NCBI RefSeq assembly: GCF_900537065.1
Contig: NZ_UNRC01000002.1
Location: 222,342-286,341 of the forward strand
Length of the DNA stretch: 64,000 nucleotides
Direction: 5' to 3'
From: Sphingorhabdus sp. Alg239-R122
Lineage (GTDB): Bacteria; Pseudomonadota; Alphaproteobacteria; Sphingomonadales; Sphingomonadaceae
Shown here: positions 43,064-45,579 of the stretch, piece by piece
Layout of the letters: each line of letters opens with the position of its first letter
Numbering within the stretch: the stretch's first letter is position 1
Notes under the pieces: model-generated
What the model was told of the DNA's origin: nothing
Database searches by the model: none
The model's input: only the letters and a program-made list of their open reading frames with translations
Program-made: the position numbers and the translations under genes

Positions 43064-43165
43064 ATGTAAAATGGATTACGGTGTTTTGCGAGTTCTGGAA
43101 AGATGGGAAATGCAGCGATGGTTCAGACTGCCGCGTGAAAGACTCGGCTGGGCGCTATTTTGATT

Positions 43166-43239
43166 TCACGGCGAGATGCTTCGCATCCGCCTCCAAATGG
43201 GTTCGGCCCAATAAGGGCCGGCGCGCAGTCGCGCTTGCG
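43166..43239 (+). repeat. Three-hairpin element, copy 1
   Basis: A 74-nt element beginning TCACGGC and ending CTTGCG. It forms three stem-loops: GATGC-TTC-GCATC inside a GGC/GCC outer stem (43170-43191), GGCCC-AATAA-GGGCC (43205-43219), and GCGC-AGTC-GCGC (43223-43234). Copy 2 at 43346-43417 lies in the opposite orientation with the same loops but different, still paired, stems. The gap 43064-43431 has no convincing gene; this pair is its main content. Confidence 0.8.
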
Positions 43240-43259
43240 AACGGCAATTTAGCCGTTCG
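43238..43259. other. Perfect hairpin next to copy 1
   Basis: CGAACGGC pairs perfectly with GCCGTTCG over AATTTA. It overlaps the last two bases of copy 1, so it may be a fourth stem of that element or a separate small palindrome. Confidence 0.6.
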
Positions 43260-43345
43260 ATATTTTGCCATAAGTAACGTTTCGTTTTACTTAGACACAC
43301 TGATGATTATCGTTTCGCGCTGTCCGGTGTTGCGTCCAGCAGCGC

Positions 43346-43417
43346 CGCAAGGCCGACTGGCCGCCGGGCCTTATTGGCCCGCCCCACCGGAGGCATTCAC
43401 GAAGTGAATTGCCGTGA
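43346..43417 (-). repeat. Three-hairpin element, copy 2 (inverted)
   Basis: Read on the minus strand it runs from TCACGGC to CTTGCG. Stem-loops: TTCAC-TTC-GTGAA inside the same GGC/GCC outer stem, GGGCC-AATAA-GGCCC, and GGCC-AGTC-GGCC. Unpaired words (GCCTCC, the loops, CTTGCG) match copy 1. It starts 15 bases after the ruvB stop, on the ruvB transcript strand, so it would be in that mRNA's 3' end. Confidence 0.8.
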
Positions 43418-43431
43418 GGTCAAAAAGAATC

Positions 43432-45068: not shown

Positions 45069-45093
45069 GCAACCGTTCTAGCGCTTTTTGACC

Positions 45094-45579
45094 TCACGGC
45101 AATACGGTAGTTTTCCGATTATGCGCATGGGTGATCGCCACCGCGAGCGCATCGGCAGCATCATGCCCCGCAAGCCTCACGCCGGGCAGCAGCCGGGAGA
45201 TCATCATCTGCACCTGTTTCTTGTCCGCGCGGCCCACACCGACCACGGTCTTTTTGATAAGCAACGCCGAATATTCGCCCACTTCTATCCCGCCGCGCGA
45301 TGCCCCTAGCAGTACAACACCGCGCGCTTGACCCAGTTTGAGCGTGCTCTTCGGGTTGACGTTCAGGAACACTTCCTCGACCGCCGCAGCATCGGGGTTA
45401 AATTCTTTCATGATGTCGGCGATTTCCAGATCAAGCTTGAGCAGCCGGCTGGGCAAGGACATTTTGGGGTCGGTCTTTATCTGTCCATTGGCGATATGCG
45501 ACAATCGGCTACCCACAGATGAAATCACGCCCCACCCGGTGGTGCCCAGGCCAGGGTCAAAGCCGATAATGACGGTCAT
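45094..45579 (-). CDS. ruvC: Holliday junction resolvase RuvC
   Basis: A 161-residue endonuclease that cuts the junction symmetrically. The acidic active site is visible: first Asp in [14 protein letters not shown], Glu in AAVEEVFL, and the last pair in [14 protein letters not shown]. Lies 25 bases upstream of ruvA. Confidence 0.96.

Follow-up and report, generated by a model that had tools for sequence, protein, structure and literature searches.

The DNA analysed here, a 64,000-nucleotide stretch of the Sphingorhabdus sp. Alg239-R122 genome (the window), carries a 268 bp intergenic element at positions 43158-43425, between ruvB and ybgC (gene names from an earlier sequence-only reading), which belongs to an unnamed repeat family where selection on a folded strand shows with unusual clarity. 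Judging from sequence searches, this family is large and is scattered between genes in alphaproteobacteria. Its stems change in pairs and its loops stay fixed, which suggests that the folded shape is what is kept. The explanation to which slightly better than even chances are given is that of a non-autonomous interspersed mobile repeat, apparently non-coding, that would be recognised as folded single-stranded DNA by an enzyme supplied in trans. In what follows, G000 is the genome of the window, G001 and G002 are two other genomes of the genus, G431 is a genome of another family, and L numbers denote individual stretches.

The element consists of two inverted arms with four hairpins each. The original prediction had described two inverted copies of a three-hairpin element at 43166-43239 and 43346-43417; all stems, loops and unpaired words quoted there are present in the sequence, with loops TTC, AATAA and AGTC common to both copies, but the limits were too narrow and the fourth hairpin (H4) was missed. 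The left arm (43158-43265, plus strand; type 1, inner type A; DNA fold z -5.33) is matched by model R1 with 110 bits and an E-value of 3e-27, and the right arm (43320-43425, minus strand; type 1, inner type B) with 113.3 bits and 3.9e-28, E-values of this model being rough. Within 43158-43265 the order is T-run, GATTTCACGGC, H1, GCCTCCAAATGGGTT, H2, H3, TTGC, H4. The left H1 (43170-43191) has the loop TTC, GAA on the outward strand, above a stem GATGC/GCATC with further outer pairs; H2 (43204-43220) is CGGCCC-AATAA-GGGCCG, H3 (43221-43234) is GCGC-AGTC-GCGC with a second register possible, and H4 (43238-43259) is CGAACGGC-AATTTA-GCCGTTCG, all placed by sequence, fold and pair counts. The right arm has on the minus strand H1 (43392-43413; ATTCAC-TTC-GTGAAT with outer GGC/GCC), H2 (43365-43381; read inward, CGGGCC-AATAA-GGCCCG) and H3 (43351-43362; GGCC/GGCC), placed by the same three lines of evidence, with the plus-strand fold used for H3, and H4 (43326-43346; GGTGTTGC-GTCCA-GCAGCGCC as plus strand), placed by sequence and fold. 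As originally noted, stem 1 differs between the arms in four of five pairs (GATGC/GCATC versus TTCAC/GTGAA), stem 2 by one flipped pair and stem 3 by two. The centre (43260-43325) is variable in the alignment of paired elements from three genomes, and by eye the inner sides of the arms resemble diverged inverted copies. Folded alone as DNA and compared with dinucleotide shuffles, the left arm gave z-scores of -5.3 and -5.9 on its two strands and the right arm -3.3 and -2.5; at minimum energy, the minus strand of the right arm gives up H3 and H4 for another pairing.

The view that selection acts on structure rather than on stem sequence gains support from the paired stems with double changes and the fixed loops of the wider set of arms. 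In an alignment of 29 arms, 96.3% of 695 stem cells pair, versus 28-43% when partners are slid by 1-3 columns. Double changes were found in 16 of 24 pairs, covering 156 cells, a cell count reached in none of 500 shuffles; the 16 double-changed pairs as such were matched by 77 of the 500. These 29 arms were taken from 63 retained in a seed list that omitted 10 of 73 arms for long linkers or nesting, and the model built from them recovered 71 arms in the stretches examined from three genus genomes. In the 71-arm alignment, which was fitted to the model and so leans towards it, 95.2% of 1636 stem cells pair (31-44% when slid) and 19 of 24 pairs are double-changed, in 368 cells; shuffles gave 133 such cells, and sliding no more than 54.

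Variation is concentrated in the middle pairs, most of the outermost and loop-closing ones being near-invariant. The pair closing the H1 loop is C-G in all 71 arms, and the loop itself reads TNC inward, that is GNA outward, in 62 of them, its middle base being free and its flanking bases fixed. An outward GNA loop was also found in 53 of 64 distinct rows matched by the type-1 model in other genera, at least four of which are type-2 arms (L107, L156 and two from L157); identical rows were counted once, reducing 71 to 64 here and 55 to 51 for type 2. The H2 loop is AATAA in 50 of 71 arms, in 56 of the 71 H3 has a C-G pair closing AGTC or GGTC, and the word CTCC after H1 (outward, GGAG before H1) is invariant in the 29 aligned arms. 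A folded nucleic acid as the thing recognised agrees with inverted arms that pair with themselves, in which loops and closing pairs are fixed and the middle of the stems is free. In DNA, GNA and GNAB loops have exceptional stability when a C-G pair closes them, and the fixation of GNA may come in part from shared descent. Extraordinarily stable DNA mini-hairpins have been described in a paper in which the string GCGAAGC occurs once (PMC10527192).

A blastn search found 21 pieces of the element in its own genome, eight of them spanning 214-266 of the 266 query bases, and 28 matches each in G001 and G002; the design recurs in both of these, the other genus genomes examined. Pairing up the arms found by profile gave 31 elements of 251-294 bp in the stretches of the three genomes, eight of them from the genome of the window, plus unpaired arms, and one additional pairing of 332 bp is an outer fragment surrounding one of the 31. 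The original reading would have failed if there were no further copies or if their stems were unpaired; many further copies were found, with paired stems. Compared with crude gene calls, 10 genus elements share more than 45 bases with a called gene; the other 26 do not. The sites, whose genes were identified from translations or from sequence read directly, are unrelated: the flanks of rpsB/tsf, ruvA/ruvC, upstream of prs, next to aroC, and after tRNAs. With copy number and location checked, this is a short, many-copy, mostly intergenic repeat, and the window element behaves like a MITE, target duplications being known from type-2 relatives alone. Some copies share a recurring linker between H3 and H4, CCTTGATTAGGATTTTGGGC and variants (L075, 5503-5379 and 7191-7307; L077, 4940-5058).

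The stems are drawn from a limited set of discrete alleles common to several genomes. An inner arm of type A faces one of type B in 26 of 32 arm pairs, and equal alleles in both arms of the 32 pairs are rarer than expected after re-pairing for H3 (1 versus 11.2), H4 (1 versus 5.9) and H1 (1 versus 4.0), with no deficit for H2 (4 versus 3.6). That the arms avoid equal stem alleles was considered and rejected, since types A and B explain the deficit and nothing significant was found within the 26 A/B pairs. Of the seven compensatory changes originally counted, the matched differences stand, but not as seven fresh mutations: because arms mostly belong to types A and B, the difference between the arms of one element mostly reflects old alleles and module exchange.

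Exchange is also seen at sites kept between genomes, where comparisons drew on the 31 elements in the sampled stretches. In 14 of 15 comparisons of orthologous occupied sites (nine sites), one or both flanks are more alike than the element, five flank values of 0.60-0.64 being at the level taken for unrelated sequence. The window site is the exception, with 0.97 for the element versus 0.91 and 0.88 for the flanks. In 9 of the 15, the copy in the other genome that matches best lies at a different site, and in 6 of the 15 the element aligned better when inverted relative to its flanks, an orientation that low identities make uncertain. Kept sites thus show mosaic replacement, and the resident content at shared sites appears often to have been replaced or inverted. 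At ruvA/ruvC, a whole element is present in G002, and the window holds a 15-base remnant terminus, TTTTGACCTCACGGC (45086-45100, plus strand), which overlaps the ruvC stop; at two more sites the element is present in one genome and absent from the other.

Beyond the genus, the type-1 model has matches at E <= 0.001, either arm type counted, in 143 of 397 genomes of the family and 45 of 96 genera; nine candidates were scored per genome under strict filters, so that absence is no proof. The models of the two types cross-match, and that of type 2 scores higher in 8 of 20 loci taken as type-1 matches. A pattern scan of named genomes gave 17 stretches, from Allopontixanthobacter, Altererythrobacter, Erythrobacter, Porphyrobacter, Parapontixanthobacter, group members and one Marinicaulis MAG; the type-1 arm in the latter (L129) would be due to transfer, contamination or mislabelling. 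In several genera a type-1 arm stands opposite a type-2 arm, built as CCTCAARCGCCGGGCG-H1'-CTTGGCTT-H2'-H3'. A class scan with the type-2 model (13 candidates scored per genome, strict filters) found type-2 arms in 30 of 337 genomes sampled across the class (20 families), and the genome of the window had no match to this model. Type 2 covaries in the same manner, with 9 of 14 pairs double-changed and 97.2% of 178 cells paired, and among 51 distinct rows its H1' loop, read outward, has the form GNAB 36 times and GNA 4 times.

Other arrangements of arms were also noted. Single arms lie head to tail in tandem, about 85-115 bases apart, in L228 (2460-2774) and L174 (1501-1675), and further such tandems occur in L115 (1501-1672) and L124 (2997-3289). 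In L149, L150 and L167, from other genomes, half-elements of both types start a few bases past tRNA 3' ends. A plasmid- or phage-borne origin was considered and rejected: the window element had no match among plasmids, and a composite relative, L140, had none among phages and matched one plasmid record (Niveispirillum), over its type-2 side. On a Niveispirillum plasmid, a type-2 arm lies between two tryptophan halogenase genes (L160).

Target duplications were observed for type 2. In G431, end sequences define 15 complete units of 146 bp, single ends often lying near contig ends, and eight stretches compared are 95-100% alike over 134-162 bases. Direct 3-bp repeats TNA (TAA, TCA or TTA) flank 10 of 12 units scored with both flanks among 18 stretches taken; in L270, TAA is present on both sides by eye and was missed by the script. 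Among 71 other type-2 cores, which include L172, likewise from G431, 5 have the frame TNA-TACC...GGTA-TNA or TNA-TATC; with reversed flanks as a control, 0 of the 71 have it. Four of the five framed cores start with TACC, and L206 starts with TATC. Both ends of these four and of the G431 unit are perfect hairpins of 6-16 bp with stems that differ between genomes; the perfect-stem script found no end hairpins in L206. Shuffled left ends gave stems of 3.5-4.0 on average and 9 at most, a range that includes the 6-bp right stem of L161. The unit ends share 11-15 of 20 bases at six loci compared, making them imperfect inverted repeats, and could also be recognised by plain sequence. At G431 C2:2868-2909, the end sequence is present as two facing copies at a distance of 42 bases, which form a solo end hairpin of a type-2 unit. 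No target duplication was recognised by eye in type-1 elements, including the window copy; the type-1 subfamily of the window probably moves, or moved, as type 2 does. Truncated outer units, judged by eye, that end GCT before GAGTC suggest that elements are nested in one another's H1 loop.

The search by end sequence found no autonomous partner in G431 (genome 77% complete), where the end occurs mainly as 146-bp units, and an autonomous copy between two arms was rejected for L079 and L158, in which the intervening genes look ordinary from their translations. The Y1 transposase (PF01797) had no match in G001, G002 or G431 and is absent from 27 of 30 strong carriers and from 12 of 17 type-2 carriers, G431 included; the other 5 of the 17 have it. 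RAYT/IS200 was therefore rejected as present mobiliser in most carriers. Within the genus, a RAYT-like Y1 transposase occurs only in the genome of the window (G000 C16:18804-19127, L089), and blastn found no piece of the element on that contig, contig 16.

The proposed mechanism takes each arm to be a chain of hairpins with fixed words between them, which as folded single-stranded DNA read outward would run 5'-H4-H3-H2-GGAGGC-H1-GCCGTGAAATC-3'. Stem sequence would be free provided that both sides change, and loops, loop-closing pairs and linkers would be fixed; the folded arm is probably what is recognised, by an enzyme that would read the hairpins. Copies would spread by transposition with this enzyme acting in trans, and the content of occupied sites might later be replaced, inverted or nested. 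The element itself presumably codes for nothing. The original idea of a mobile short repeat is supported, and the repeat plausibly acts as single-stranded DNA. That the folded molecule is DNA rather than RNA is suggested by the GNA and GNAB loops on one strand, the absence of orientation bias in single arms and the type-2 target duplications.

The main alternative, which seems unlikely, is that the element acts at the RNA level, as arrays of hairpins transcribed within untranslated regions that would protect, cut or end transcripts. Such a role has been suggested for BIME, ERIC, Correia and BOX repeats. At minimum energy, the whole element forms a single long hairpin in which arm pairs with arm, both as DNA (z -8.5) and as RNA (z -10.1); such predictions do not by themselves favour self-folded arms, and the strong RNA fold, as convincing as that of DNA, agrees with an RNA role. 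So does gene context, in that elements with type-1 arms are rarer in divergent gaps and most thus lie where they could be transcribed: 3 of 26 classified genus elements are in such gaps, versus 46 of 155 element-free gaps as background, and 4 of 31 in other genera, versus 28 of 76. Of the elements in other genera that carry type-2 arms and no type-1 arm, 9 of 39 lie in divergent gaps, which counts against RNA, as does the orientation of single-arm elements between tandem genes, 12 in the same and 12 in the opposite direction (type 1, 5 and 5; type 2, 7 and 7). Genes for these counts were called by a crude GC-position script; genus elements without a neighbour were dropped, and 17 of the 87 elements from other genera were unclassified (15 overlapping a called gene, 2 without neighbour). 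Given the many unrelated sites and the lack of orientation bias, the original suggestion of an RNA 3'-end element for ruvB and ybgC finds no support.

Wobble intermediates, which an RNA would be expected to show, are few, G-T accounting for only 21 of the 1636 cells in the arms (8 one way round and 13 the other). Wobble asymmetry was discarded as a test of the strand, since inward versus outward G-T counts in three alignments (21 versus 40, 7 versus 6 and 30 versus 17, with 19 of the 40 and 11 of the 30 each in one pair) do not decide it. A known RNA family was rejected as well: Rfam gave no match above gathering score on an element, the only matches above it being adjacent tRNAs, which again speaks against an RNA role. 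Below that score, P33 matched at 43136-43302 with 17.3 of 45 bits, and L167 (1505-1591) matched the Twister-sister ribozyme with 29.4 bits against a gathering score of 34, probably by chance. The literature search found no account of these repeats, six sequence words of the family matching no paper searched, and the initial impression that the family is unnamed holds for both Rfam and the papers searched.

It is improbable that the element is, like CIR or BIME, a DNA site maintained by host selection because it serves methylation in the cell cycle or the organisation of the chromosome (CcrM/GcrA, gyrase, IHF), its repetition being incidental. Occupation of the same sites across genus genomes fits such a site, as does the word GANTC, the CcrM site, which 43 of 73 arms carry within a 16-base stretch around their outer end, compared with 2.0% of background stretches of that length. 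However, in 39 of these 43 the word is GAGTC, and a control, AGNCT, whose sequence overlaps GAGTCT, is found in 39 of 73 arms; with one word dominating and the control equally frequent, the excess is explained by shared descent. GANTC was found in none of the listed hairpin loops, unlike in CIR, and at some of the sites a sister genome has no element or just a scar. Less probable still, by a shade, is a purely mutational origin of the stem changes through template switching or correction in quasi-palindromes, a process established for bacterial palindromes that copies one stem side to the other and would account for near-perfect stems with few one-sided intermediates, but that predicts neither near-invariant closing and outermost pairs with variable middles, nor fixed loops and linkers beside wholly different stems; the limited, discrete set of stem alleles common to genomes also counts against it.

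Among named families, those closest to the element are CIR, REP/BIME with RAYT, MITEs and BOX, each of which differs from it in some respects. CIR, the Caulobacter CcrM-associated intergenic repeats, were reportedly first described by Chen and Shapiro in 2003. They are likewise alphaproteobacterial and intergenic, with two hairpin arms and a linker, GANTC sites and a mechanism of mobility given as not known, but are about 110 bp long, versus 268 here, and have GANTC at the terminal loop rather than at the outer ends (PMC2229807, PMC10969869). Four hairpins per arm and allele exchange, both found here, are not mentioned for CIR in the parts seen of these papers. The different place of GANTC excludes CIR by definition. 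The sequence GGAG, besides GT(A/G)G, is a REP head that stands before the palindrome. REP/BIME with RAYT are similar as intergenic palindromes in inverted pairs, GGAG preceding H1 outward here, but a REP is one short palindrome, compared with an arm of about 108 bases and four hairpins (PMC2817692). Since the Y1 transposase is absent from most carriers, the family is not REP/RAYT by definition. MITEs share short length, target duplications and stable folds with the type-2 relatives; in these, the ends have TACC first in five of the six shown and the hairpin stems vary by genome, and the present elements are GC-rich versus AT-rich MITEs (PMC10969869). The pneumococcal BOX is also a modular interspersed repeat with hairpin modules and varying content, likened here by description, but has a direct A-B-C order and was studied as RNA (PMC3049150).

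Covariation this strong is normally taken to indicate a functional RNA; in the present family it occurs in a mobile DNA repeat without orientation bias, which makes the family a clear-cut case in which to test selection on folded DNA and its stem alleles a natural variant set for finding a hairpin-reading protein. A wider reading, rather doubtful at present, is that of a class-wide alphaproteobacterial system in which an enzyme other than Y1/RAYT would read single-stranded DNA hairpins, with whole or modular exchange of content at kept sites. The elements account for some of the differences between the intergenic regions of these genomes. Two further palindromic repeats, TTCCAGCGAAGGCTGGAA and CCCCTCTCCTTTAGGGGAGGGG, replace or adjoin the element at about 6300-6850 in L077 and about 18250-18300 in L076.
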